Shown: piece after piece, positions 3,709-56,335 of the stretch
How positions within the stretch are numbered: the stretch's first letter is position 1
Layout of the letters: every line of letters starts with the position of its first letter
Origin: Methanobacteriota archaeon
GTDB taxonomy: Archaea > Thermoplasmatota > DTKX01 > VGTL01
DNA: 64,000 bases
Assembly: GCA_016874675.1 (NCBI GenBank)
Contig: VGTL01000001.1
Span: 1 to 64,000 of the forward strand
Reading direction: 5' to 3'
The notes under the pieces: generated by a model
What the model saw: the letters and a program-made list of their open reading frames with translations, nothing else
Told to the model about the DNA's origin: nothing
Database searches by the model: none
Made by a program: the position numbers and the translations under genes

Positions 3709-3710
3709 CG

Positions 3711-3784
3711 GCAGGGTGCGGGGTGCCGGGCTGTCTGATTTCTACTGTTGACCCCTGACCCGGCACCCTGCACCCGGCACCCTG
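3711..3784. repeat. Inverted tandem-word array (GGGTGC/GCACCC), likely bidirectional terminator
   Basis: Between two convergent genes. The left arm CAGGGTGCGGGGTGCCGGG is mirrored by the right arm CCCGGCACCCTGCACCCGGCACCCTG, around a short AT-richer loop that includes TGATTTCTACTGTTGA. It is the smallest member of the family described at 12041-12204. A strong hairpin at the 3' end of both transcripts would suit a terminator or an RNA-stabilising end. Confidence 0.6.
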
Positions 3785-3789
3785 AGCGA

Positions 3790-8132: not shown

Positions 8133-11100
8133 GTGCCCGGAACCGGGGATAGCGACGAGCGCGTCCTCGAGCAGCTGCGCGAGATGCCCCCCGAGCGGTT
8201 CAACGAGGTGGTCATCGCGCTGTTCGAGGCGATGGGCTTCGAGCTCGACGATGCCACCGTCACGGAGGGCCGGCTGGTCCTGCGAGCCCGGCTGGACGGT
8301 AAGGCCTACCTGGCGAGCGCCCGCCACGGCGAGGGGATAATCGAGGAGCTGCGGGCGCTCGGGGGCTCCCTCGAGGGCGGTTCGGGCATCTACATCGCGC
8401 TCGACAGCTTCGACGACCCGCTGCGCGAGGAGTGGGGCGGAAGGAACGTGGAGCTTTTGGACTCGAAGGACCTGGTGCTGGGGGTCTCCGCCTACAAGAT
8501 CCTCGGCAAGCTCGAAGGGATGGAGAAGGACATCGAGTCCGAAAGGGAGTCCCAGCGGGCGGCGGTGGCGGCCGCCGCGGCCGCCGGGCAGCTCCCGGGA
8601 GGGCCCGACGGGGCCGGGGCGGAGGCGGGCTGTGGGGTCGAATCCGGGCTCGGCCAGCTCCCGCCGGAGCTTCAGCACGAGGTGAGAAAGCACCTGCTCC
8701 AGGCACGCGAGCTGGGCGCGCTCGGCGACCACCGGGGCGCGGCGGACCGCTGGGCGCGCATCATCGGCCTGGCCCCAGACCTCCCCGGCGCGCACTTCGA
8801 GCTGGGAAACGAGCTCTACGCCCTCCACGACCACCACGGCGCGGTGCGCGCCTACAACACGGAGCTCCGGACGAGCCCGGCGAGGGCCGAGGTCTGGTAC
8901 AACAAGGGCGTCGCCTACGCCGAGATAGGCAACCTCGACAAGGAGGTGGAGAGCTACCGGCGCGCCATCGATCTGGAGCCCTCCCACGAGAAGGCCCTGA
9001 ACAACCTGGGCGTGGCCTACTACAACGCCGGCCGCTACGACGACGCGCTGGCCACCTACGACCGCCTGCTCGCCGTCCGGCCCAACTCGGGGCGCGCCAA
9101 GAACAACCGCGGCGCCGCCCTCAAGATGTTGGGGCGGCTGCAGGAGGCCCTCGATTCGTTCAATGCCGCGCTGACCGCCGACCAGGACCGCCCGGTCTCG
9201 CTGCACAACAAGGCCGAGGTGCTCTCGCTCCTGGGCCGGCACCGGGAAGCGGCCGAGTCCTTCGAGCTACTGATGGGCATGGGCCGGCCAGACGAGAGGC
9301 TCTGGCACGCCTACGGGGTGGAGCTTGCGGGGCTGGGGCGCAACTGGGAGGCTGTCAAGGCGTTCACCGAGGCGGTGCGGCTCAACCCCAACTTCTCCGA
9401 CGCCTGGGACCGGATGGAGGACCTCGTGGAGCCCTCCAAGATCCCCCAGATGCTCGCCGAGTGCGACCGGGCGCTCTCCACCGACCCCAACGACATGTTC
9501 GACCTCTACACCAGATCGCGCCTGCTCCACCGCCAGGGAATGACGCCGGACGCCATCTCGGCGCTCCGGCGCGTCGTCGAGCTCAACCCCTACTTTGCGC
9601 TGGCCTGGCGCGACCTGGGCAGGATCTACTACACCCTCGGCCGGCCGGCCGAGGCCGCCGAGGCCCTGGAGAAGGCCACCGAGTTCGAGCCCGCCTCGGA
9701 GGCGGGCTGGAGGGACAAGGGCAACGCCTACTTCCTCCTGGGCCGGTTGGAGGACGCGGTCGCCTGCTACGACAGGGTGAGGTCGGCCGGCGGCGAGTTC
9801 GAGGAGGTCTGGTTCAACAAGGGCAAGGCGCTGTCGCGCCTGGGGCGGGAGGACCAGGCGCTCGCAAGCTACGAGAAGGCCCTGGCCTTCCGCAAGGAGC
9901 ACGCCGAGCTCTGGTTCCGCATGGGCATCGCCAGGCGCCGCCTGGGCCGCCACGCCGAGGCCCTCCGGGCCCTGGACCGGGCCATACAGATCAAGGTGGA
10001 CTACCACGAGGCCTGGTACGAGAAGGGCAACCTGCTTTGCGAGATGGAGCGCTTCGAGGAGGCCGTGCCCTGCTTCGACCGGGCGATGGACCTCAACCCG
10101 GGCAGCGAGGAGGCCTGGGCCGCCCGGGGAGCCGCGATGCACGTGCTGGGCAAGACCTCCGAGGCCATCGAGTGCTACGACAGGGCCATCGAGCTCAACG
10201 GGGACTATCTCGAGGCCTGGTACCGCAAGGGCAACGTGCTGAGCTGGGCCGGCCGCTACTCCGAGGCCCTCAAGTGCTACAACAAGGTGCTGGAGAGGGA
10301 CCCCTACCACTCGGAGACCTGGAACTGGAAGGGCACCGCCCTCTACAACCTGGGCGACCGGGAGGGCGCCAAGGAGGCCCTCGGCCGGGCGCTCGCCATC
10401 AACCGCCACGACGCCAAGGCCTGGAGCAACCTGGGCTCCATCCACAACTCCGAGGGCGGGTTCGCCAAGGCCCTCGAGGCCTACGACAGGGCCATCGCCG
10501 CCGAGCCGGAGTTCGTCCACGCCTGGGTGGGGAAGGGCAACGCCCTCTTCGGCCTGAACCGGCCCAAGGAATCCATCGAGTGCTACGACCGGGCGGCGGC
10601 CATCAACCCGGACCACCTGGCCTCCCTGCGCAACAAGGAGGCGGTGCTCGCCTCCGGCGGCCGGCTGGAGGAGGTCATCGCGGTCTGCGACGAGCAGCTC
10701 CGGAAGGCGCCCCGGGACTGGGGGGCCCACGAGCGCCGCGGCGACGCCCTCAACAAGCTGGGCAGGTACGCCGAGGCCTACGATTCCTACAAGCGGTCGC
10801 TCGGGCTCAACGCCGAGAACGCGGGGGCCTGGTGCAAGGTGGGGGACATCGCCCAGGGGCTCGGGCGCCACGAGGAGGCTCTGGAGGCCTACGACCGGGC
10901 GCTGGCGCTGGAGCCGGGCAACGCCGCGGTCATGAACAACCGCGCCACGGTCCTTTTCGCCCTCGGCCGGTTCAAGGAGGCCAAGAAGGCGTTCACCCAG
11001 TCGCTCGAGGCTGACTCGCGGGTCGCCGGCGTTTGGTCCAACAAGGGCAACCTGCTGTTCCGGATGGGCGAGCTCAAGGAGGCCGCCTCGTCCCTCCAGC

Positions 11101-12038
11101 GCTCGCTGGAGCTCAACCCCAACGACCCGGAGGTGTGGAACAACCTGGCCAACGTCCTGGCCGCGCTCAAGCGGTACGAGGACGCCCAGGAGGCCTACGA
11201 CCGGGCGTTCGCCATCAGGCCCTCGGAGATCTACCTCGAGGGCAAGGGGAACATCTACCGGGAGACGGGCGACTACGAGAACGCCCGGGACTGCTACGAC
11301 CAGGCGCTCAAGCTCAAGCCCGACTTCGCCCGGGCCTGGAACAACAAGGGCGCGGTGGCCCTCATGGTCGGCGACCTGCCGGGCGCCGGGGATTGTTTCA
11401 AGAAGGCCGCCGACCTCGACCCGAGGTACGCCGTCCCGTGGAACAACCGCGGCGTGGTCCTCGAGCGCCAGGGGATGATAAAGGACGCGGTGGAGTGCTA
11501 CCGCAGGGCGGTCGAGCTCGAACCGGGCTACGCCGAGGCCTGGTTCAACCTGGGCAACTCGCTGCACGTGCTCGGCGACCTCGAGACCGCCCTCGAGGCC
11601 TACGACAGGGCGCTAGCGAGCTACCCCGACCTGGCGCCTGCGCTCCTGCGCAAGGGCGAGGCGCTGAACATCATGGGTCGCAACAAGGACGCCCTCGGGT
11701 CGTTCGACTCGGTGCTCCGGACGCAGAAGGGGAACGCCCAGGCCTGGCTGGGCCGGGGCAACGCCCTGCTGGACCTGGGCCGCAAGACCGAGGCCATCTC
11801 GGCCTTCGACAAGGTGCTGGAGCTCGGTCCGGAGAGCGCCGAGGCCTGGTTCAAGAAGGGCCACATCCTCGAGAGCATGCGCCACACGGTCAAGGCCCGC
11901 GAGTGCTACCAGAAGGCCGTCACGCTGGAGCCGGTCTACCAGGACATCCTCGACGCCAAGCTCAAGCGCCGCGAGCGCGCCGTCGCCCCCCGGCGCTCGT
12001 TTGCCTCCGAGATAAAGCCGCCGGACGAGGAGGAGTGA
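8133..12038 (+). CDS. Giant TPR-repeat protein with a degenerate Mrr/restriction-endonuclease-like N-terminal domain
   Basis: A 1301-aa cytosolic protein. Residues ~1-125 resemble an Mrr-type restriction-endonuclease fold: PERFNEVVIALFEAMGFEL, a central beta region, then GIYIALDSFDDPLREEWGG and VELLDSKDLV, matching the usual late strands. The expected D-ExK catalytic residues are not visible (KAYLASARH sits where a QxK strand is expected), so the domain is probably a non-catalytic binding fold. From ~185 to ~1280 run about 32 tandem 34-residue TPRs with WxNKGxxL and AxxxYDRAL consensus. TPR arrays form superhelical peptide-binding scaffolds. The end is basic (KLKRRERAVAPRRS). The start is GTG 8133, about 26 bp after the TATA box. 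The partner is unknown. Confidence 0.85.
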   Translation: MPGTGDSDERVLEQLREMPPERFNEVVIALFEAMGFELDDATVTEGRLVLRARLDGKAYLASARHGEGIIEELRALGGSLEGGSGIYIALDSFDDPLREEWGGRNVELLDSKDLVLGVSAYKILGKLEGMEKDIESERESQRAAVAAAAAAGQLPGGPDGAGAEAGCGVESGLGQLPPELQHEVRKHLLQARELGALGDHRGAADRWARIIGLAPDLPGAHFELGNELYALHDHHGAVRAYNTELRTSPARAEVWYNKGVAYAEIGNLDKEVESYRRAIDLEPSHEKALNNLGVAYYNAGRYDDALATYDRLLAVRPNSGRAKNNRGAALKMLGRLQEALDSFNAALTADQDRPVSLHNKAEVLSLLGRHREAAESFELLMGMGRPDERLWHAYGVELAGLGRNWEAVKAFTEAVRLNPNFSDAWDRMEDLVEPSKIPQMLAECDRALSTDPNDMFDLYTRSRLLHRQGMTPDAISALRRVVELNPYFALAWRDLGRIYYTLGRPAEAAEALEKATEFEPASEAGWRDKGNAYFLLGRLEDAVACYDRVRSAGGEFEEVWFNKGKALSRLGREDQALASYEKALAFRKEHAELWFRMGIARRRLGRHAEALRALDRAIQIKVDYHEAWYEKGNLLCEMERFEEAVPCFDRAMDLNPGSEEAWAARGAAMHVLGKTSEAIECYDRAIELNGDYLEAWYRKGNVLSWAGRYSEALKCYNKVLERDPYHSETWNWKGTALYNLGDREGAKEALGRALAINRHDAKAWSNLGSIHNSEGGFAKALEAYDRAIAAEPEFVHAWVGKGNALFGLNRPKESIECYDRAAAINPDHLASLRNKEAVLASGGRLEEVIAVCDEQLRKAPRDWGAHERRGDALNKLGRYAEAYDSYKRSLGLNAENAGAWCKVGDIAQGLGRHEEALEAYDRALALEPGNAAVMNNRATVLFALGRFKEAKKAFTQSLEADSRVAGVWSNKGNLLFRMGELKEAASSLQRSLELNPNDPEVWNNLANVLAALKRYEDAQEAYDRAFAIRPSEIYLEGKGNIYRETGDYENARDCYDQALKLKPDFARAWNNKGAVALMVGDLPGAGDCFKKAADLDPRYAVPWNNRGVVLERQGMIKDAVECYRRAVELEPGYAEAWFNLGNSLHVLGDLETALEAYDRALASYPDLAPALLRKGEALNIMGRNKDALGSFDSVLRTQKGNAQAWLGRGNALLDLGRKTEAISAFDKVLELGPESAEAWFKKGHILESMRHTVKARECYQKAVTLEPVYQDILDAKLKRRERAVAPRRSFASEIKPPDEEE

Positions 12039-12040
12039 GG

Positions 12041-12204
12041 GGAAGGCGCATGGCGCAAGGCGCATGGCGCAAGGGGCGAAGGCGCAAGGCTCGAGGCGCA
12101 AGGGTCAAGGAAAATGGGAGGATATGATCCGATGATCCCCTTGTCCCTTGCGCCTTGACCCTTGCGCCTTCGCCCCTTGCGCCATGCGCCTTGCGCCTCG
12201 CGCC
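12041..12204. repeat. Inverted tandem-word array (GGCGCAAGG / CCTTGCGCC) between convergent genes
   Basis: The left arm (12041-12112) iterates words such as GGCGCAAGG and GGCGCATGG. The right arm (12138-12204) iterates their complements. A 38-nt block at 12052-12089 is perfectly complementary to 12160-12197. The ~25-nt centre is AT-richer. It fills the whole gap between the TPR gene and valS, which converge, so it could terminate both transcripts. Similar arrays with the same word occur at 15958, 18351, 23928 and 53044. Confidence 0.85.
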
Positions 12205-14880
12205 TCATTTGCGCGGCAGCTCCACAAGCACCGTCAGCTCCCCCACCGAGAGGGCCTCCACGCGCATGTTCTCGGCGACGGAGGCGCGCTCGGGCCTGAC
12301 CATGTCCGGGGTGACCTGGACCCTTGCGCCGTCGGGGAGCGCCACCTCGAGCGGGCCCTTCGAGAGGGCCTCGCCCGCGCTCTTCGGGTCCAGATTGCCT
12401 ATCGCGGCCGCCACCTCGCCGGAGCGGGCCTTGAACGCCGGGCCCAGCTTCCGGTTGACCGGCAGCACCCGGATTATCTCCTCGCGCAGCTCCGCCGGCC
12501 GGGACAGGCGGATGCGGTCGGCCTTGAGGGCGCCCCGCATGTCGTCGAGGTAGTCGCGCAAAACCTCGCTCCCCGGGCCGAAGATGTACACCGAGCCCAT
12601 TGGCTGCCCGAGGCGCAGGCCCTTCCCGCCCTTCCAGGCGCGCAACCTCGCCACGACGTCGCGGGCCAGCGCGCCGTCGGCGAGCGCCTTCCCGTCGTCC
12701 AGGACGGGCTCCGGCCAGGCCGAGCGGTGGATGCTTCCCGGGCCCTCGAACGCCCGATAGTGCCTCTCGTAGATCTCCTCCGTGACGTGGGGCATGAAAG
12801 GCGAAAGCATCTTGGCCAGGCCCAGGCCGATGGTGTACAGCGCGTACCTCGAGGACTCGTCGCGGCGGTGCTTGGCGAGCTCGATGTAGTGGTCGGCGAA
12901 CTCGTGCCAGAGGAAACCCTCGACCTCCCGCATCGCCTTGTCGAACTGGTAGTCGTCCATGAGGGCGGTGGCCCGTTTGAGCATCTGCGAGTAGGCCGTG
13001 AGGATCCAGCGGTCGGCGCTCCTGAGCGCGGCCGGCGCGGCGGGCCGCTGCCTCTCCTCCCGGATTGCGGCACCGACGAACTTCCCGACGTTCCAAAGCT
13101 TCGTCGCGAGCTTTCGGCCGTGCACCACCTCCTTGGACTGGAAGGCGTGGTCCATGCCCAGGGTGCAGGAGGCCGCGTAGTACCGGAAGGCGTCAGCCCC
13201 GTGCCTGGCAAGAAGCGGCAGCGGGTCGATGACGTTGCCCTTCGAGGTGTGCATCGGGGCGCCGTCGGGGGCCATTATGAAGCCGTTTATCATGATGTCC
13301 GTCCAGGGCCTCTTGTCGAAGAGGAGCAGGTGGCGGTGGATGGTGTAGAAGGCCCAGGTGCGTATGATGTCGTGGCTCTGGGGCCTCAGCGACATCGGGA
13401 AGAGCCGCTTGAACTTCTCGGGGTCCCTCTGCCAGAAGCAGTTGTAGAGGGGCGTGATGGAGCTGTCCATCCAGGTGTCGAACACGTCCTCCACCCCCTT
13501 GAGCCTGCCCCCGCAGTCGGGGCACCTGTCGACGGGGGGCGGCGTCACCGTCGGGTCGACGTAGCACATGTTGGGCTTGGCGGGCACGGCCTTTCCGCAG
13601 CGCTGGCACTCCCAGACTGGGATGGCGGTGGCGAAGTACCTCTGCCTCGATATGCACCAGTCCCAGGCGAGCGAGTCGGTCCAGTTCTCGAGCCTTATCC
13701 TCATGAAGTCGGGGTGCCACCTCAGCTCGGCGGACTTGCCCTTTATGCGGTCCTTGAACTCGAGCGTCCTGAGGAACCACTGGGGGACCGACAGGAACTC
13801 CACCGGGGTGTGGCAGCGCCAGCAGGTGCCGACGCTCTGAGAGAGGTCCTCCTGCTTGACGAGCAGCCCCTGCCCCTGGAGGTCCTTGATTATTGCCTCG
13901 CGGGCCTCCCGGATGGTCATGCCGGTGTAGATGCCCGCAAGCGAGGTCAGGCGGCCGTCGGCGTCGATGCCCTTCTCGATGGGCAGGTTGTAGCGGTGGA
14001 CCCACTCCAGGTCGTCTTTGTCCCCTATCGTGCATATCATCACGATGCCGGTGCCGAAGTCGGGGTCGACCTTGGGGTCGTCCTGGACCGGCACCCTCCT
14101 CCGGTAGATCGGCGTGAGCAGCCCCTTGCCCAGAAGGTCGCGGTGCCGGGCGTCATCGGGGTTCACGGCGACCATCTGGCAGGCGCAGAGGAGCTCGGGC
14201 CTCGTGGTGGCGATGACCTCGGAGCCCCCGTCCTCGCGCCCGAACCTGACGAAGTTGAGCTTGGTGCCCCGCTCCTGGTACTCGACGTCGGCGCTGGCGA
14301 GGGCCGTCCCGCAGTGGGGGCACCAGGTCACCGGGAACTCCTTTTTGTAAACGAGCCCCAGCTTGAGCATCACGAGGAAGGTGAGCTGGGTGATGCGCCG
14401 GTAGTGGGCGGCGTCCGTCTGGTAGTAAAGGCTCGGGTCCATCGAGTGCCCCAGGATGCAAAACTGCCTGGTCATCTCGGCGATGTTCTCGGCGGCGAAG
14501 GCCGAGCAGAGCTCGATGAGCCTCTGGCGGGGCGTGTTCTTGCGGTTGACGCCGTAGCGCTTCTCGGTGGCCACCTCAATGGGCATGCCGTTGACGTCGG
14601 CGCAAAGGGGGAAGAAGACGTTGAAGCCGCGCAGGCGCTTGTACCTGGCCACGAAGTCTATCTGCGTGTAGCTCGTGGCGTGGCCCAGGTGGAGCGCCGC
14701 GTTGGCGTAGCGCGGCGGGTTGTCGATGCTGAAGACCGGCCGGTCGGACCCCCAGTCGAACCAGTAGGTGTGGTCCTTCGCCCAGCGGTCCTGCCAGCGC
14801 GCCTCGACCTCCTTGAAGTCGTAGTCCGTCGGCGGGAGCGGCGCTTCCCGCTCCTCCTTCGGCCCCTTTCCATCGCGCAT
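12205..14880 (-). CDS. valS: Valyl-tRNA synthetase
   Basis: An 891-aa class I aminoacyl-tRNA synthetase that charges tRNA-Val. The HIGH motif appears as LHLGHA within PPRYANAALHLGHATSYT, and the KMSKS motif as HTSKGNVIDP. The CP1 editing domain follows, with four zinc-type Cys clusters (CPHCG, CWRCH, CQRCG...C, CPDCGG), as in archaeal ValRS. The anticodon-binding domain (RSADRWILTAYSQMLKRATAL) and a C-terminal beta-rich part (ENMRVEALSVGELTVLVELP) complete it. ATG 14880 was chosen over the in-frame ATG six codons upstream because GGGAGGT lies 5 bp before it. Length is normal for the archaeal form. It converges with the TPR gene. Confidence 0.95.
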   Translation of the reverse strand: MRDGKGPKEEREAPLPPTDYDFKEVEARWQDRWAKDHTYWFDWGSDRPVFSIDNPPRYANAALHLGHATSYTQIDFVARYKRLRGFNVFFPLCADVNGMPIEVATEKRYGVNRKNTPRQRLIELCSAFAAENIAEMTRQFCILGHSMDPSLYYQTDAAHYRRITQLTFLVMLKLGLVYKKEFPVTWCPHCGTALASADVEYQERGTKLNFVRFGREDGGSEVIATTRPELLCACQMVAVNPDDARHRDLLGKGLLTPIYRRRVPVQDDPKVDPDFGTGIVMICTIGDKDDLEWVHRYNLPIEKGIDADGRLTSLAGIYTGMTIREAREAIIKDLQGQGLLVKQEDLSQSVGTCWRCHTPVEFLSVPQWFLRTLEFKDRIKGKSAELRWHPDFMRIRLENWTDSLAWDWCISRQRYFATAIPVWECQRCGKAVPAKPNMCYVDPTVTPPPVDRCPDCGGRLKGVEDVFDTWMDSSITPLYNCFWQRDPEKFKRLFPMSLRPQSHDIIRTWAFYTIHRHLLLFDKRPWTDIMINGFIMAPDGAPMHTSKGNVIDPLPLLARHGADAFRYYAASCTLGMDHAFQSKEVVHGRKLATKLWNVGKFVGAAIREERQRPAAPAALRSADRWILTAYSQMLKRATALMDDYQFDKAMREVEGFLWHEFADHYIELAKHRRDESSRYALYTIGLGLAKMLSPFMPHVTEEIYERHYRAFEGPGSIHRSAWPEPVLDDGKALADGALARDVVARLRAWKGGKGLRLGQPMGSVYIFGPGSEVLRDYLDDMRGALKADRIRLSRPAELREEIIRVLPVNRKLGPAFKARSGEVAAAIGNLDPKSAGEALSKGPLEVALPDGARVQVTPDMVRPERASVAENMRVEALSVGELTVLVELPRK

Positions 14881-14970: not shown

Positions 14971-15918
14971 TCAGACGGAGACGAGGCGGTTCCCGGCCTT
15001 GCGGACGAGCCCCCTGGAGCGGAGGCGCGCGATGTGCTTTCGCACCATGACCTCCTCCCAGAACCGGAAGGGGAGCTTCAGCGCGCCGATGCGGGCGCCA
15101 TAGATGGGGTGGCGCCGGACCAGCTCGTCCAGCGTGGCCGGCGCCCGAAGCACCTCGCGGATGTAGCGGTCGCGCTCTTCGATGCGGGCTTGGTACCTTC
15201 GCAGGATGCCGGCGATGTCTTGGTCGACCGGCCCGGAGTGCGCCGGGACGAGCCTGCTCGGCCCAAGCCGTATTATCCGGTCGATGGAGGAGGCGAAGTC
15301 CTCCGCCGAGGAGCAGGCGTGGCCGTACCAAGGCCCGAAGGCGTCGGGGCAGATGTCCGCCGAGAACAGCGTCCGGCTATCCCGGTGGAAGAAGCCGCAG
15401 TGGCCCGGCGAGTGCCCCGGGAGGTGGACGGCCTCGAGGACCGGGCCCCCCAGGTCGAAGAGGTCGCCGCCCCGGAACGGCCGGACCCTGGGCCCTTGCC
15501 GGTGGGGAATGAACGTCATCGTGAAGCGGCGGATCTCGCGCTCGTCCGGCCGCCCGAGAATCCCCATCTTGCGGAAGTAGACCGCAAGCGAGTTGAGCAT
15601 GGGCGCGTCGCGGACGTGGGCCAGGATCGGGACGCCCCGGAAGAGCCAGTTGCCGAAGTTGTGGTCCCGGTGGTAGTGGCTGTTGAGGACCAGGTGTATG
15701 CGGTGGCTTCGCCGGAGCCGGCGCAGGACATCGAGGCCCGTCCCCGTGTCCACGAGGAGGTTTTGGTCGCCCAGGGCGAGCAGCGAGTGGGCGTACGGGA
15801 TTCGCGCCGAGTTTTGGGCGCGCACGAGATACAGGCCAGGCGAGAGCTCCTCGAGAAGCCCGGCCCGCCCGTCCGCCGCCTGACGATCCCCGCCTTGCGC
15901 TCCCCCGTCAAGCCTCAC
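14971..15918 (-). CDS. MBL-fold metallo-hydrolase (beta-lactamase/glyoxalase II superfamily)
   Basis: A 315-aa metallo-beta-lactamase-fold hydrolase. The binuclear metal motif is SHYHRDH (HxHxDH), with further metal ligands in LPGHSPGHCGF, SADICPDAFG and LVPAHSGPV. Early strands (LLALGDQNLLVDTGTG) are typical. The last ~75 residues form a helical extension with a winged-helix look (VRRHPIYGARIGALKLPF, then HIARLRSRGLVRKAGN), as in LACTB2-like members. Substrate is unknown; relatives include glyoxalase II, thioesterases and RNA-processing enzymes. The start is GTG 15918, about 23 bp after an AT-rich TATA element (15941-15950). It is separated from valS by 90 bp, so co-transcription with it is unlikely but possible. 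Confidence 0.8.
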   Translation of the reverse strand: MRLDGGAQGGDRQAADGRAGLLEELSPGLYLVRAQNSARIPYAHSLLALGDQNLLVDTGTGLDVLRRLRRSHRIHLVLNSHYHRDHNFGNWLFRGVPILAHVRDAPMLNSLAVYFRKMGILGRPDEREIRRFTMTFIPHRQGPRVRPFRGGDLFDLGGPVLEAVHLPGHSPGHCGFFHRDSRTLFSADICPDAFGPWYGHACSSAEDFASSIDRIIRLGPSRLVPAHSGPVDQDIAGILRRYQARIEERDRYIREVLRAPATLDELVRRHPIYGARIGALKLPFRFWEEVMVRKHIARLRSRGLVRKAGNRLVSV

Positions 15919-15950: not shown

Positions 15951-15957
15951 GGAAGGC

Positions 15958-16083
15958 CCAGGGCGCCGGGCGCGAGGCGCAAGGGACGAAGGCGCAAGGA
16001 GGAAGGCGCAAGGGGCAAGGAGGGAAAACCCCCTTTCCCCCGTTGTTCCTTGCGCCTTGCGCCCTGCGCCTCGCGCCTTTTTT
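15958..16083. repeat. Inverted tandem-word array (GGCGCAAGG family)
   Basis: The left arm (~15958-16028) iterates GAGGCGCAAGGGACGAAGGCG-type words; the right arm (~16034-16083) iterates CCTTGCGCCTTGCGCCC and ends CGCGCCTTTTTT. Unlike the array at 12041 it lies upstream of a gene (MBL hydrolase) and downstream of the 45-aa candidate gene on the same strand, so termination of the latter is possible. Confidence 0.75.
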
Positions 16084-16411: not shown

Positions 16412-17476
16412 ATGAAGGTCGTGTTCCTCTACGACGGCCCCCACCCGATGCACCTGGCCTGGGCCCAAAGCGTCGGCGCCGTCCCCGTGGCCAACCGTTT
16501 CAACACCCGGACGGACGCCGCGGCGCTCAAGGCCCGGCCCGACGAGGGCTCGGCGCGCCGGGCGCGGGGGCTGGAGCTCGTCAAGGGCATCTCGCTGCGG
16601 TCGCTGGGACTGCCCGCCTCCTCGTACTTCCAGGGACTGGTGCAGGGCGCCGCCGGCATCCGGGAGCTCGACGCCGACGTCCTGCTGGTCGAGGGTCGGA
16701 TGGGCGTCGTCCCGGGGCACATGTTCAAGAGGCTCCGGGGCGGCAAGGTGGTGCTCATAACCGCCGACCCGTTCATCTGGGAGATGAGGTCGTTTTCGCC
16801 CTGCTGGCGCCGGCGGTTCGACCACATCCTCGAGGGCTTCGATGGCATAATATCCGTCTCGAGGATGATGTACGACCTGCTGCCGGCGAGGGCCCGGCGG
16901 AACGCCCGGGTCGTCCACCCGTCCTTCGAGAGCGGCTACTTCGACATCGAGCCCGACCCGGCCTCCGGCGCCATCGCCTACATCGGCGCGCTGGACGAGC
17001 GGAAGGGCGTCGACCTCTCCGTCGAGGCGTTCAGGAAGGCCCGCCGGTCAGTGCCGGGGGCCCGGTTCGTCCTCATCGGCAAGGGGCCCCTCGCCGAGAG
17101 GTACGCCGGCGTCGAGGGCCTGGAGTTCCCCGGCTTCGTCAAAGACCCGCGGGAGCACCTCGCCCGCTGCGCCCTCTTCCTCCACATGTCGCGCTTCGAC
17201 CCGTACCCCGTGTCGGTGCTCGAGGGCATGGCGGCCGGTCTCGTGCCCGTGGTGTCCGAGATGACGGGCACCCGGGAGCTTTTGGAGAAGATAGACCCGG
17301 GGCTCGTCGCCGCAAACCCGGCGAGGGCGGCCGCCAAGCTGGTGTCGCTCCTGCGGGACCCGGAGCGGATCCGCGCCCTCTCGATCGAGTGCAGGAAGGC
17401 GGTCCGGGGCTGGGACAAGGAGCGGAGCCTTCGGGACTTCCGGGAGGCGTTTTGGCTCATGACGGGGGGCGGGTGA
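16412..17476 (+). CDS. Glycosyltransferase family 4 (GT-B fold)
   Basis: A 354-aa GT-B glycosyltransferase that moves a sugar from a nucleotide donor to a glycan acceptor at the cytosolic membrane face. The N-terminal domain starts MKVVFLYDG. The C-terminal donor-binding half shows AIAYIGALDERKGVDLSVEA (phosphate-loop region) and FVLIGKGPL. It ends in the retaining-enzyme E-x7-E motif within PYPVSVLEGMAAGLVPVVS. ATG 16412 is chosen over an in-frame TTG at 16394 because GGAGGAG sits 6 bp upstream. The next gene, a GT2, begins 13 bp after its stop, so the two form an operon. Donor and acceptor are unknown. Confidence 0.85.
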   Translation: MKVVFLYDGPHPMHLAWAQSVGAVPVANRFNTRTDAAALKARPDEGSARRARGLELVKGISLRSLGLPASSYFQGLVQGAAGIRELDADVLLVEGRMGVVPGHMFKRLRGGKVVLITADPFIWEMRSFSPCWRRRFDHILEGFDGIISVSRMMYDLLPARARRNARVVHPSFESGYFDIEPDPASGAIAYIGALDERKGVDLSVEAFRKARRSVPGARFVLIGKGPLAERYAGVEGLEFPGFVKDPREHLARCALFLHMSRFDPYPVSVLEGMAAGLVPVVSEMTGTRELLEKIDPGLVAANPARAAAKLVSLLRDPERIRALSIECRKAVRGWDKERSLRDFREAFWLMTGGG

Positions 17477-18323: not shown

Positions 18324-18350
18324 CGGGCCGCGGGAAGGGCGAGACAATAG

Positions 18351-18650
18351 GGCGCAGGGCGCAAGGCGCAAGGCGCAAGGGAAGGCGCAGGGCGCAAGGC
18401 GCAGGGCGCAGGGCGCAAGGCGCAAGGCGCAAGGCGCAAGGCCTGAAAGCTAGATACCCCGGAATTCATTCCGGGGTCGTTTCACCATAGCATAGCGTGA
18501 TGCCCCGGACTTCAGTCCGGGGTATTGGAACGCGCAAGGCGCATAGTGGAAGTATCAAGGGAACGACCGTGGATTCCCCCCTTGTCCCTTGCGCCCTGTC
18601 CCTCGCGCCTCAAGCCTTGCGCCGTGCGCCCTGCGCCCTGTGCCTTGAAC
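18351..18650. repeat. Large inverted tandem-word array (GCGCAAGG) with a nested paired-hairpin element
   Basis: The left arm (~18351-18440) is a near-perfect run of GGCGCAAGG/GGCGCAGGG words. The right arm (~18582-18650) holds the complements (CCTTGCGCCCTG words). Between them lie the paired-hairpin element at 18443-18522 and a short GGCGCAAGGCGCATAG remnant. This is the longest array in the window. It separates the glycosyltransferase pair from the RfbF-led operon, and no gene is evident in it. Confidence 0.8.
18443..18522 (+). mobile_element. Paired-hairpin element, copy 1 (IS200/IS605-end-like)
   Basis: Starts CTGAAAGCTAGAT, then hairpin 18456-18477 (ACCCCGGAA TTCA TTCCGGGGT), spacer with TTTCACCATAG and AGCGTG, then hairpin 18503-18522 (CCCCGGAC TTCA GTCCGGGG). 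Copy 2 at 51268-51347 shares the same lead, first hairpin, spacer words and second-hairpin position. Hairpins with TTCA/TTTA-type loops and GCCCC stems resemble the subterminal palindromes of IS200/IS605 elements and REP sequences mobilised by TnpA-like proteins. No transposase gene is nearby. Confidence 0.65.
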
Positions 18651-23501: not shown

Positions 23502-23927
23502 ATGGAGATAAGGCTCGACGAGGGCACCATCAAGCTCATCGCCCTATTCGAATCGGTGACCCGCGCCGAGGTGCGCGACTGCATTCCCTCCGACGAGCGG
23601 GTGGTGTTCATCGTCGGGAAGGGGCAGGCGGGCGCGGCCATAGGTGAGCGGGGCGAAAACATCCACAGGCTGCGGGAGCTTTTGCGCAAGAACGTCGAGA
23701 TAGTCGAGTGGGCCGAGGTCGCGGAGGCGTTCGTGCGCAACATCTTCCACGCCTTCAGGGTCTCCGAGGTGAAGATAGAGCGCCGGAAGGGCCGCAACAC
23801 GGCCGTCGTCACCGTCGCCCCGGGCGAGAAGGCCCGCGCCATCGGAAGGGAGGGCCGCAACCTCCGGCAGGCCCGGAACATACTGGCGCGCCACTTCAGG
23901 GACATCGAGGCCGTGGTGATCGCGTAG
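23502..23927 (+). CDS. nusA: Archaeal NusA-like transcription factor (two KH domains)
   Basis: A 141-aa protein made of two KH RNA-binding domains and no S1 or N-terminal RNAP-binding domain, as usual in archaeal NusA. KH1 carries GKGQAGAAIGERGENIHRL and KH2 carries APGEKARAIGREGRNLRQA (GxxG loops). Proposed to bind nascent RNA and affect termination or elongation. ATG 23502 follows the L30e stop by 8 bp. An inverted word array immediately follows its stop codon. Confidence 0.93.
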   Translation: MEIRLDEGTIKLIALFESVTRAEVRDCIPSDERVVFIVGKGQAGAAIGERGENIHRLRELLRKNVEIVEWAEVAEAFVRNIFHAFRVSEVKIERRKGRNTAVVTVAPGEKARAIGREGRNLRQARNILARHFRDIEAVVIA

Positions 23928-24081
23928 GGGAAGGCGCACGGCGCAGGGCGCAAGGCACGAGGGGCGAAGGCGCAAGGAGGAAGGCGCAAGGGCCGGGGGG
24001 AATGTGACCCGCCCGGGTGCCTTGCTTCCCGTGCCTTCCTCCTTGCCCCCTCGCCCCATGCGCCCTGCGCCCTGCCCCTTC
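23928..24081. repeat. Inverted tandem-word array (GGCGCAAGG family) after nusA
   Basis: Begins right after the nusA TAG. The left arm (23928-23996) iterates GGCGCACGG, GGCGCAAGG and GAAGGCGCA words; the right arm (~24006-24081) iterates CCTTGC, CTCGCCCCATGCGCCCTGC words. It lies between two same-strand genes, so it would act as a terminator/insulator before the downstream sugar operon. Confidence 0.75.
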
Positions 24082-26044: not shown

Positions 26045-27052
26045 ATGAAGGCCGTCATCCCCGCCGCCGGCTTCGGCACGAGGTTCCTCCCGGCGACCAA
26101 GTCCCAGCCCAAGGAGATGCTGCCCGTCGTGGACAAGCCCGCCATCCAGTACGTCGTAGAGGAGGCGGTGGAGTCCGGGATAGACGACATCCTGATAATC
26201 ACCGGCCGGGGCAAGCGCGCCATCGAGGACCACTTCGACCGGGCGGGGGAGCTCGAGCACCACCTCCGGGAGAGCGGCCACCCCGAGTTGCTGGGGGCCC
26301 TGGAGGCCATCACCGAGCTCGCCGACCGGGGCCACATACACTACGTCCGCCAGAAGGAGCCCCTGGGCCTGGGCAACGCCATCGCCTGCGCCCGGATGCA
26401 CGTCGGCCGGGAGCCGTTCGCGGTCCTCCTCGGGGACGACATAATCGACGCCCCCCGGCCGTGCACCCGGCAGCTTTTGGACATTTTCGAGAAAGAGGGG
26501 TGCTCCGTCATCGCCGTGGAGCGGGTCCCCCGGGAGAGGCTGGGCTCCTACGGCGTGGTGGCCGTCGAGCCCTCGGACGGGCCGCTCCACGAGGTGCGCG
26601 GCCTGGTCGAGAAGCCCGCCCCGGCGAGGGCGCCCTCCGACCTGGCGGTCATGGGCCGCTACGTGCTGACCCCCGCGGTCTTCGGGTGCCTGGACCGGAC
26701 CGCCCCCGGGAAGCACGGAGAGGTCCAGCTGACGGACGCTCTGGAGCTCCTGCGGAAGAGGGAGCGCATCGTCGCCGTGGAGTTCGAGGGGAGGCGCTAC
26801 GACATCGGGAAGAAGCTCGACTGGCTCAAGGCCACGGTGGAGCTCGCGCTAAAGCGGCAGGAGTTCGGAGACGAGCTCGTCACCCACCTGGGCGGGCTGC
26901 TCGAGGGCATGGGAAGGAGGGCGGGATGGCGGGATGGCGGGAAGGGAGGGGGGCAGGAAGGCAGGAAGGCGGGAAGGCAGGAAGGCAGGAAGGCGGAAAG
27001 GGGTGGATCGGGGGCAGGAATGCGCAGAGGGCGTGGAGGCGGGAGGCGATGA
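26045..27052 (+). CDS. galU: UTP-glucose-1-phosphate uridylyltransferase with a repeat-derived C-terminal tail
   Basis: A 335-aa GalU that makes UDP-glucose from UTP and glucose 1-phosphate. AVIPAAGFGTRFLPATKSQP is the NTP loop, KEMLPVVDKPAIQYVVEEAV the sugar-binding start, and VLLGDDIID the metal site. LVEKPAPARAPSDLAVMGRY and FEGRRYDIGKKLDWLKATVE complete the family pattern. The normal enzyme ends near residue 285. The last ~45 residues are translated from a G/A-rich repeat (26911-27003) and read Gly/Arg/Lys/Glu low complexity. The stop overlaps the start of the next gene as ATGA. A TTTTTAAGT TATA-like box lies ~30 bp upstream. Confidence 0.92.
   Translation: MKAVIPAAGFGTRFLPATKSQPKEMLPVVDKPAIQYVVEEAVESGIDDILIITGRGKRAIEDHFDRAGELEHHLRESGHPELLGALEAITELADRGHIHYVRQKEPLGLGNAIACARMHVGREPFAVLLGDDIIDAPRPCTRQLLDIFEKEGCSVIAVERVPRERLGSYGVVAVEPSDGPLHEVRGLVEKPAPARAPSDLAVMGRYVLTPAVFGCLDRTAPGKHGEVQLTDALELLRKRERIVAVEFEGRRYDIGKKLDWLKATVELALKRQEFGDELVTHLGGLLEGMGRRAGWRDGGKGGGQEGRKAGRQEGRKAERGGSGAGMRRGRGGGRR
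26911..27003 (+). repeat. Purine-rich tandem-word run inside the galU 3' end
   Basis: Repeated GGCGGGATGGCGGGAAGG and GGCAGGAAGGCGGGAAGG-type words, G/A only apart from single C and T per word. It resembles the left arm of the intergenic word arrays but lacks the pyrimidine arm and is translated as the C-terminal tail of GalU. Confidence 0.7.
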
Positions 27053-34039: not shown

Positions 34040-34170
34040 AAGGGGAGCGGGCAGCGGGCAGCGGGGGCAACTGGGAGCAGGGAGCGGGGAGCGGGGGGCG
34101 ACTGGATCCGTTTCGTCACCAGTGCCCGCTGCCCGTTGCCCGCTGCCCCCCGCTGCCCGCTGCCCCTGGC
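34040..34170. repeat. Inverted tandem-word array (GGGCAGC / GCTGCCC)
   Basis: The left arm (~34040-34101) iterates GGGAGCGGGCAGCGGGCAGC-type words; the right arm (~34120-34170) iterates GCCCGCTGCCC. It lies downstream of the DUF131 gene and upstream of the giant surface-protein gene, both on the minus strand. It uses a different word from the GGCGCAAGG arrays but has the same architecture. Confidence 0.78.
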
Positions 34171-41322: not shown

Positions 41323-41323
41323 G

Positions 41324-41397
41324 GGCAGGGGGCAGGGTCAAGGGGCAAGGGGACGAACGACGGTCGTCGTCCCCTGACCCTTGCCCCTTGCCCCTTG
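41324..41397. repeat. Inverted tandem-word array (GGGGCAAGG / CCTTGCCCC)
   Basis: GAGGGCAGGGGGCAGGGTCAAGG-type words, then the loop stem GGGGACGA/TCGTCCCC, then TGACCCTTGCCCCTTGCCCC. It sits between the two tandem paralogues and is nearly perfectly self-complementary over 70 bp. Confidence 0.75.
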
Positions 41398-41468
41398 TAT
41401 TCGTCGCATTTCGCGCCGCCCGCTCGAACGACGAAACGCTTATGCCGGGCTACGGCGTATCGGCCAGC

Positions 41469-52011: not shown

Positions 52012-53043
52012 ATGGGCGTCGACCTCTCCGAGCTGGTCCCGAAGCAGCCCAAGCTCATCCGGGACTTTTCGGGGCAGACGGTGGCGGTCGACGCCTACAA
52101 CACCATCTACCAGTTCCTGGCGATAATCCGCCAGCCCGACGGGTCGCCCCTGATGGATTCCCGAAAGAGGGTGACCTCCCACCTCTCCGGCCTGCTCTAC
52201 CGCAACTTGAACCTGCTCGAGGCCGGCATCCGGCCGGTGTACGTCTTCGACGGGAAGCCCCACGAGCTCAAGAAGGGCACCATAGAGGAGCGGGCGGCGA
52301 TAAAGGAGAAGGCGCAGGCGGAGTACGAGGCGGCGCTGGCCGAGGGCGACCTGGAGAGGGCGCGCTCGAAGGCCCAGCAGACCTCCCGCATCACGAAGGA
52401 CATGGTGGAGGAGGCAAAGAGGCTCCTTGGGCTCATCGGGATACCGGTCGTGCAGGCGCCCATGGACGGCGAGGGCGAGGCGGCCTTCCTCGTGCAGAGG
52501 GGGCACGCCTCGGCGGTGGCGTCGCAGGACTTCGATTCGCTTCTCTTCGGCTCGCCCGTCCTGGTGCGCAACCTGACCGTAACGGGAAGGCGCAAGCTCC
52601 CGCGCAAGCAGGTCTACATCAACGTCGAGCCCGAGAGGATGGAGCTTCCGGCCGTGCTGTCGGCGCTCTCCCTCACCCGGGAGCAGCTCGTGGAGATGTG
52701 CATCCTGATGGGCACGGACTTCAACGAGGGCATCCGGGGCATCGGCCCGAAGAAGGCCCAAAAGCTCATGTCGGAGCACGGGACCCTCGAGAGGGTCATC
52801 GCCGCGAAGAACTACGACATCCCTCAGTGGCAGGAGGTCCGGCGGATATTCCTGGAGCCGGCCGTGGAGGACCCGGGGCCGCCCGCGTTCGGCGAGCCTC
52901 AGGTGGAAAGGATCGTCGACCTCCTCGTCGGCGAGCACGATTTTTCCAAGGAGCGGGTGGAGAGCCCGCTCAGGCGCCTGGTCGAAATGCGCAAGGAGCA
53001 GAAGAGGCAGGGCTCCCAGCTCCGGCTGGACAAGTGGTTCTAG
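52012..53043 (+). CDS. fen1: Flap endonuclease 1
   Basis: A 343-aa structure-specific nuclease that removes 5' flaps in Okazaki-fragment maturation and repair. N-block: MGVDLSELVPKQ, AVDAYNTIYQFL, YVFDGKPHELK. I-block: PVVQAPMDGEGEAAFLVQRG and VASQDFDSLLFG carry metal-binding acids. MGTDFNEGIRGIGPKKAQKL is the H2TH/metal region. The C-terminal QLRLDKWF is a PCNA-binding PIP box. All key residues appear intact and length is normal. It follows the membrane-protein gene by 19 bp and is followed by a large word array. Confidence 0.96.
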   Translation: MGVDLSELVPKQPKLIRDFSGQTVAVDAYNTIYQFLAIIRQPDGSPLMDSRKRVTSHLSGLLYRNLNLLEAGIRPVYVFDGKPHELKKGTIEERAAIKEKAQAEYEAALAEGDLERARSKAQQTSRITKDMVEEAKRLLGLIGIPVVQAPMDGEGEAAFLVQRGHASAVASQDFDSLLFGSPVLVRNLTVTGRRKLPRKQVYINVEPERMELPAVLSALSLTREQLVEMCILMGTDFNEGIRGIGPKKAQKLMSEHGTLERVIAAKNYDIPQWQEVRRIFLEPAVEDPGPPAFGEPQVERIVDLLVGEHDFSKERVESPLRRLVEMRKEQKRQGSQLRLDKWF

Positions 53044-53285
53044 AAGGCGCAAGGCGCGAGGCGCAGGGCGCAAGGCGCAGGGCGCAAGGCTTGACCGCAG
53101 GCGAGCAACGCTCGCCTAGGCAAGGACGACCGAAGGTCGTCCGGGGGCGCAAGGGTGAAGGCGCACGGGACAAGGGGATTTGCGGGCCGGATGGCTTCCC
53201 TTCCCCCGAACCCTTGACACCTGATCCTCGACCCTTGTGCCCTGTCCCTTCGCCCCTTGCGCCTTGCGCCCTGCGCCTTGCGCCT
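53044..53285. repeat. Inverted tandem-word array (GGCGCAAGG family) with nested double hairpin
   Basis: The left arm (53044-53092) holds GGCGCAAGGCGCGAGGCGCAG-type words; the right arm (~53200-53285) holds CCCTTCGCCCCTTGCGCCTTGCGCC. Inside lies the double hairpin 53099-53142. It separates fen1 from the convergent membrane-protein gene, so bidirectional termination is plausible. Confidence 0.8.
53099..53142 (+). repeat. Double hairpin nested in a word array (REP-like)
   Basis: Hairpin 53099-53117 (AGGCGAG CAACG CTCGCCT) and hairpin 53124-53142 (GGACGACC GAA GGTCGTCC), 6 bp apart. The layout, two compact hairpins inside a word array, echoes the element at 18443-18522, but the sequence is different. 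Confidence 0.55.
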
Positions 53286-53290
53286 TCCCC

Positions 53291-56078: not shown

Positions 56079-56335
56079 GGTTGATTGGGGGGACGTGTTG
56101 GTGCTGTTGGTTAGGGGGACGTGTTGGTCCTGTTGGTCAAGGGGGACGACGATGGGAAGCGGAAGCCCTTTTGAGTATCATGTCCCTTGCCAATTCCATC
56201 AAATTCAGTCAAGAAATATCAACAGTACGTCATCCTACTCAATCGTATTGATACACCCCCGTACCAATTTCATCAATACGTCCCCCCAACCAATCGCACC
56301 AACACGTCCCCCGAACCGATATGACCAACCGTCCC
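56079..56335. repeat. Inverted array of 26-bp tandem units around an AT-richer core (MITE-like)
   Basis: The left arm (~56079-56150) reads, on the plus strand, GGTTGATTGGGGGGACGTG..., GGTTAGGGGGACGTGTTGG... in 26-bp steps. The right arm (56229-56335) carries about three units of the same word on the minus strand (GGTTCGGGGGACGTGTTGG, GGTTGGGGGGACGTATTG, GGTACGGGGGTGTATC; spacing 26, 26, 25). The core (56151-56228) is unusually AT-rich for this window and has no ORF. It fills most of the 337-bp gap before the CDF gene. It may be a non-autonomous element or a longer-word member of the inverted word arrays. Confidence 0.7.

Follow-up and report, generated by a model that had tools for sequence, protein, structure and literature searches.

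The intergenic region at position 12041 raises the question of what kind of element has two long mirrored arms that are each a tandem run of a short word, and how these arms come to match. It lies in the window, by which we mean the whole 64,000 nt stretch analyzed here (C1:1-64000 of a 3.36-Mb archaeal genome, a draft in 189 contigs), between the convergent genes 8133-12038(+), encoding a TPR protein, and 12205-14880(-). Its purine arm of GGCGCAA words (12044-12110, plus strand) is located 5 nt past the stop codon of the first gene, and a 28-nt loop (12111-12138) separates it from the pyrimidine arm (12139-12205, minus strand). Both arms are 67 nt long, and the second is 93% complementary to the first. 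The exact complementarity of the 38-nt block 12052-12089 to 12160-12197, described in an initial sequence-only reading, was verified. The core TATGATCCGATGATCCCCTTG (12123-12143), which extends from the loop into the inner arm, had one other copy in the genome at up to 3 mismatches (C7:2519-2539).

That reading had listed nine spacers of the window with inverted tandem-word arrays, and all nine loci were present. Inverted arrays of GGGTGC words (3710-3786) are found between a convergent gene pair, and GGCGCAA-type arrays (15953-16079) between the divergent genes 14971-15918(-) and 16412-17476(+). The element that follows has plus-strand genes on either side and is composed of a purine arm of about 13 GGCGCAR words (18349-18442, plus strand), the core GGAACGACCGTGGATTCCCCCCTTG (18560-18584; 7 genome copies with up to 3 mismatches) and a pyrimidine arm (18580-18647, minus strand). 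The inverted arrays at 23930-24081 are positioned immediately 3' of a NusA-like KH gene, 23502-23927(+). This gene is adjoined by what we take, by eye, to be an L30e gene; we base the archaeal assignment of the genome on this pair and on a TGT/DUF5591/PUA protein. GGGCAGC/GGGGAGC arrays (34042-34166) carry a class-B core in their loop (for core classes see below), and GGGGCAA/GGGCAGG arrays (41323-41398) have the loop region GGGGACGAACGACGGTCGTCGTCCCC; the latter locus was left out of the scored set, the called gene start at 41388 cutting the array. Between another convergent gene pair, a purine arm of GGCGCAR words (53043-53090, plus strand) faces a pyrimidine arm at 53252-53287 (minus strand). 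The last element has a class-D core, a purine-richer arm (0.59 purine) of 26-bp units (GGGGGACGTGTTGGT...) at 56080-56148 (plus strand) and its complementary arm at 56256-56335 (minus strand).

Other repeats were also observed in the window. A second palindrome, CCCCGGANTTCANTCCGGGG, is present at 18457-18476 and 18503-18522; the genome has 11 exact copies and 20 with at most 1 mismatch. It forms six pairs 46-47 nt apart (e.g., C34:1942/1988 and C8:7923/7969), some of them within array-bearing spacers. The pairs resemble a BIME-type double hairpin, for which the arrays may serve as sites of entry. Inside an array loop (53099-53117), next to a second hairpin, GGACGACCGAAGGTCGTCC, lies a third palindrome, AGGCGAGC-N3-GCTCGCCT, with 17 places in the genome. 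Within the called gene 26045-27052, an 8-bp tandem repeat, AGGAAGGC, with about 10.6 copies (26915-26998) resembles the GGCAGNAA array words.

The genome sample for the spacer scan was 810 kb of the 3.36 Mb. Genes were called with a home-made codon-score script (573 genes, 88% coding), and inverted repeats were scored in 337 spacers of at least 40 nt, longer spacers being cut at 900 nt. Triplet-shuffled versions of the same 337 spacers served as chance control. A score of at least 18 was reached in 90 of the 337 spacers of these 810 kb (about a quarter) and in none of the shuffled spacers; at a score of at least 15, the numbers were 106 and 1. Seven of the nine window loci scored at least 18, and the locus at 3709 scored 15.0. 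For the locus at 41323, the score was only 14.0, its right arm being truncated by the called start of the following gene. In this genome, tandem runs of G-rich words, about 7 nt in length, are chiefly intergenic; 24 lag-7/8 tracts also lay within coding sequence. RNA of the arrays, expected beforehand to form long hairpins, had predicted folds more stable than mononucleotide shuffles at all nine loci (z values of -3.8 to -14.0); for the 12041 locus, the predicted fold had -146.8 kcal/mol compared to a shuffle mean of -70.6.

Inverted repeats are a known class of artefacts, and the arrays were found in a metagenome-assembled draft. Nevertheless, it is hardly conceivable that they result from assembly or amplification. 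A single word pattern gave 219 and 200 matches (partly overlapping) on the two strands of the genome but 0 for the reversed control, and the units occur in many different spacers, sited by stop codons. Furthermore, five related archaea analyzed with the same pipeline (15-160 kb each, 121 spacers) showed no arrays, the one match in G001 being a run of N. The arrays were confirmed as real and as present genome-wide.

The word was thought to differ by locus. Several words do indeed exist, but they are not private to single loci: 82 of the 101 scored loci fell into three word classes (38 GGCGCA, 31 GGCAG and 13 GGGCAGC), and whole units recur. C3:24323 and C5:37318 have 172 nt in common at 98%, including the arms, the loop and some sequence past the right arm. 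For C11:23024 and C11:30995, 176 nt are common at 95% (arms and loop). The farther flanks of these pairs differed when compared by eye. The 12041 unit could be aligned to C7:2438 and C7:17207 throughout its arms and core, with a mean column identity of 81%. All 7 genome copies of the core of the 18349 element were accompanied by purine-first inverted arms (scores 16.5-32.5) and had different flanks. REP, BIME and MITE elements are characterized by a unit that is scattered in numerous copies among unrelated flanks, and this was observed here as well, the flanks being judged by eye.

The cores showed a similar picture. Four core classes (A-D) were set up after viewing the loops; 37 of the 101 loci could be classed and 64 fitted none. 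The core class followed the word class in 10/10 loci for B (GGGCAGC), 8/8 for C (GGCGCA), 5/5 for D (26-mer) and 13/14 for A (GGCAG). An expectation-maximization motif search on the loops returned array words and not the core. ACGAC/GTCGT was present at the loop center of 40 of the 101 loci, whereas the mean was 6.8 for dinucleotide shuffles and 8.8 for random array-free spacer pieces. Units with common arms and loop in different spacers strengthen the earlier suggestion of a mobile (dispersing) family. We lean towards the view that the arrays are copies of one loosely related, non-coding palindromic family that spread through the gaps between genes, with the arms re-copying each other.

Each unit starts with a series of purine-rich words, mostly 7 or 8 bases long, continues with a loop or a short core and ends with the mirrored series. 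If such a family spread, new copies would mainly land close to stop codons or between promoters, which would be harmless spots, and slippage of the words would let the arms grow or shrink. Hairpin template switching during DNA replication would rewrite one arm from the other, keeping the arms matched while the words drift. If the arrays have a host function, for instance assistance in 3'-end formation, it would be a secondary one.

Traces of the spreading process itself were also sought. At the 101 loci, we found no target-site duplication of constant length; the flank match was 3.52 versus 3.28 expected (sd 0.09), and 3 of the 101 loci had at least 6 nt. No empty site was seen among the relatives compared, none of which belongs to the same genus. 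A search for Y1 transposase and reverse transcriptase revealed no mobilizer tied to the arrays. For the Y1 (IS200/RAYT-type) transposase, we detected one whole gene (L195 = G000:C71:475-819) and a further match split into two pieces (G000:C5:7669-7973), and no array was present in the 2.3 kb around the whole gene. Both are candidate movers of the short palindromes described above. A reverse transcriptase, by eye of the group II intron type, is encoded in L198 (G000:C8:36670-40266). Contig C8 had a sampled GC of 0.54 versus 0.65-0.69 for the other sampled contigs, yet it harbors the same arrays.

The matching of the two arms was followed with rare 14-mers. At 60 tract-defined loci, rare left-arm 14-mers recurred in the right arm of the same locus in 158 of 3169 cases and in the right arms of other loci in 506 of 186971 cases, a difference of about 18-fold. 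The two arms of one locus had a mean 14-mer sharing of 0.165, as opposed to 0.045 for arms of different loci, and sharing with the own partner exceeded the mean of the others in 45 of the 60 loci. The own partner was the single best match at only 9 of these loci, and 11 of the 60 shared no 14-mer with it. For loci picked by inversion, the own partner was best in 30 of 88 and among the top four in 52 of 88. The arms are often imperfect mirrors, with the own partner not the best match at most inversion-picked loci. Since rare 14-mers were shared about 18 times more within a locus than between loci, the arms likely re-copy each other, and the local homogenization or fold-back copying proposed before gained support.

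The 12041 locus provides an example. The mark GGGGCGAAGG or its mirror was found in 11 spacers, and both together only in the 12041 spacer. At C7:2438 the mark is present in the left arm only and at C7:17207 in neither arm, so that the 38-nt perfect mirror at 12041 likely arose when the right arm was recently rewritten from the left. Template switching can make and maintain hairpins, according to the available part of a published report (PMC8794818). The sharing between arms would be an expected product of hairpin template switching, and is not a proof of it.

We also analyzed the placement of the arrays between genes. Inverted repeats with a score of at least 18 were present in 30 of 58 convergent spacers, in 23 of 101 spacers between two plus-strand genes, in 16 of 91 between two minus-strand genes and in 21 of 87 divergent spacers. 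The preference for convergent spacers (30/58 versus 60/279 for the others, Fisher p 7e-6), the closeness of the outer arm edge to a stop codon (no more than 20 nt away in 70 of 112 cases with a score of at least 15) and the very stable predicted RNA folds would be in agreement with two-way transcription terminators or 3'-end processing hairpins that end both transcripts, a role already suggested for the window loci. In tandem spacers, moreover, a T5 run up to 80 nt past the stop codon was seen in 14 of 142 spacers without arrays but in 0 of 50 with them (p 0.023), although spacer length confounds this comparison. However, confinement to the 3' sides of genes was not observed, as 21 of 87 divergent spacers, in which no transcript need end, were positive (39 of 192 for tandem spacers; at 150-250 nt, 2/15 divergent and 17/46 tandem). 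Among spacers of 250-400 nt, 41 of 56 held inverted repeats, whatever the gene orientation. T5 runs in convergent spacers were alike (3/66 versus 1/50), and archaeal termination generally depends on T-runs rather than hairpins. The presence of arrays in divergent spacers and in most long spacers of every kind weakened the terminator suggestion, and we now regard this role as quite unlikely. After removal of the array, the median leftover spacer was 43 nt for convergent pairs (25 nt when array-free) and 157 nt for divergent pairs (136 nt when array-free). The leftover was longer in tandem spacers (102 versus 27 nt), perhaps due to the sparing of operon-internal gaps. The median distance of the arrays to start codons was 65-90 nt (score at least 18). 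This placement fits insertion into tolerant sites better than a terminator role. Recurring units, a core that follows the word where it could be classed, near-normal leftovers in convergent and divergent spacers, and the divergent sites themselves all argued for a dispersed palindromic element over a terminator.

The arrays could also have grown at each locus without any spread, if G-rich words slip and the G-rich nascent strand snaps back and copies itself, with the purine-rich arm first every time. Such local growth would account for the rare variants common to both arms of a locus and for the same polarity, with partly other words, in the sampled bacteria (see below). A stem made of heptamer motifs is also known from the tRNA-Leu intron of Nostoc (PMC4476775). 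We nevertheless consider growth without spread unlikely, given that loops and cores common to different spacers imply copying between sites and that convergent and divergent leftovers are of near-normal length. For the heptamers of Xanthomonas and Nostoc, a nature as G-quadruplex elements was proposed, and Xanthomonas oligonucleotides fold into quadruplexes in vitro (PMC4692102, available part). In our set, an arm with the canonical three-tetrad motif, defined as four GGG runs with loops of 1-7, was present at 24 of 101 loci. The 77 others had none; they include 62 of 69 loci from the two most frequent word classes, where GGG stems from variants such as GGCGCAG. The mirrored arm would, in addition, compete as duplex. 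Because 77 of the 101 loci are without the canonical motif, a quadruplex role is not the conserved property, and it is highly improbable that the arrays are quadruplex elements.

A spreading palindromic family also has to be reconciled with the order of the arms. From the window it had been claimed that the G/A-rich arm always precedes and that the reverse order never appears. Among the 90 spacers with a score of at least 18, 88 were purine-first, none was pyrimidine-first and 2 were neutral. At scores of 15-18 there were 13 purine-first, 2 pyrimidine-first and 1 neutral case, and at scores of 12-15, which shuffled spacers also reach, 10, 6 and 1, respectively. The 2 pyrimidine-first cases at a score of at least 15 have arms without tandem words, so the claim is not valid for every inverted repeat, but it held for all those with tandem arms (92 purine-first, 0 pyrimidine-first at a score of at least 15). 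A search for tracts of tandem words that is blind to inversion gave 35 purine-then-pyrimidine and 0 reverse cases at the cut of 16 used first, and 60 versus 0 at the laxer cut of 12 used later. Equal frequencies of both orders, defined beforehand as the outcome that would speak against the rule, were not observed in the 810 kb. Lone purine or pyrimidine tracts were directed away from the nearer gene in 43 cases and toward it in 11.

The arm order holds no strand information, because an inverted repeat reads alike on both strands. Turning a palindrome around leaves it unchanged, so the polarity within this genome can be explained by common descent alone, if the founder was purine-first. The element would be identical whichever way it lands, its descendants would keep the founder order, and presumably no strand-specific process is needed.

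In bacteria, regions were picked mainly by a match to a GGCGCA-type pattern. Among the matches listed for the GGCGCAR pattern (79 stretches), 4 lay in an inverted repeat with a score of at least 15, and all 4, from Bacteroidetes, Chloroflexi, a Deltaproteobacterium and Nitrosomonadales, were purine-first. The tandem-armed inverted repeats of the sampled bacterial regions comprised 13 purine-first, 2 pyrimidine-first and 6 neutral cases, with one Nitrosomonadales place (L096 = L176) counted once. In the same stretches, the polarity was mixed for those inverted repeats whose arms are not tandem words (12 purine-first, 4 pyrimidine-first, 20 neutral). The two pyrimidine-first tandem-armed cases (L157 2901-2961 and L217 18946-19020) are from Deltaproteobacterium SM23_61 and have CCCTCCC-like arms; they are possible exceptions to the polarity rule. 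Long purine-first inverted arrays of the GGCGCAA type were seen in Chloroflexi Centralia_MAG_115 (L187, L188, L199, L203, L205; scores 38-71.5), which has more matches near contig ends and is a bacterial look-alike of the archaeal arrays.

Common descent leaves the same polarity in bacteria unaccounted for. Tentatively, and with less than even confidence by a clear measure, we suggest that a newly made G-rich 3' end may snap back where it meets a short palindromic core, and then copy itself, in archaea and bacteria alike, and that the resulting hairpins then spread. The G-rich arm would come first in such a fold-back reaction because the nascent G-rich strand is made before its copy. If this is true, purine-first word palindromes in unrelated genomes are footprints of one universal reaction. 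An origin from telomere fusion, with G-rich strands face to face, was considered and set aside.

Among archaea, 59 relatives had no match to one GGCGCA word pattern, and 193 relatives had none to a CAAGG-type pattern. Among the archaea compared, none of them of the same genus, the arrays were found only in this genome. REP/BIME elements and MITEs are dispersed intergenic non-coding palindromes and resemble the arrays in this respect. In contrast to these elements, the arms of the arrays are tandem words of varying length. Neither a link to the Y1 transposase genes nor a consistent target duplication was found.

Published repeat systems were compared on the basis of the available parts of the respective articles. 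The intrastrand triplex motif TM-ECO (Holder et al. 2015, PMC4666352) is, like the arrays, a repeated foldable G/C-rich motif. However, it has a C-rich segment first, followed by two G-rich segments, with 9-nt stems, while the arrays are made of tandem words and were purine-first in 92/92 tandem-armed cases. The TAACTGA repeats of Beggiatoaceae (MacGregor 2015, PMC4679880) are likewise abundant intergenic heptamers, but are described there as direct repeats located mostly upstream of start codons, with one inverted repeat only, whereas the archaeal arrays are inverted. The tRNA-Leu intron of Nostoc has a P6b stem formed, like the arrays, by heptamer motifs that are complementary between its two sides, and it shows insertions of 7 or 14 nt; the Nostoc heptamers occupy one intron site, and the archaeal arrays are genome-wide and intergenic (PMC4476775). 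Cyanobacterial heptamer repeats are also named in PMC4692102.

The closest likeness was to the GGGAATC heptamers of Xanthomonas campestris and X. axonopodis (Rehm et al. 2015), for which the available text reports 70 and 75 convergent array pairs, that is, pairs with the G-rich arm first (PMC4692102). These arrays are closer to the 5' neighbouring ORF, and their role is said there to await elucidation (PMC4692102). Both systems have G-rich 7-nt words that vary within an array, are mostly intergenic and have the G-rich arm first. The direction of the G-rich word away from the nearer gene, a further property of the Xanthomonas type, was likewise seen here for lone tracts (43 versus 11). Judged by the same text, Xanthomonas has one word type, GGGANTN, while the archaeon has several 7-8-nt words and a 26-mer. 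Loop cores in common and dispersed whole units were demonstrated here, in an archaeal host; divergent gaps, where the Xanthomonas type is under-represented, are not clearly avoided, and the canonical quadruplex motif is restricted to the 24 loci mentioned above. Xanthomonas massiliensis had 0 matches to GGGAATCGGGAATC. Going by this comparison with open-licence PMC literature, in which we make no claim to a first archaeal case, the archaeal arrays appear to be a multi-word variant of the Xanthomonas-type kind. The archaeon allows spread, arm-to-arm copying and polarity to be separated and counted. A repeat class without explanation thereby becomes testable, by asking whether units insert, whether arms convert each other, and for what reason the G-rich arm comes first in unrelated lineages.
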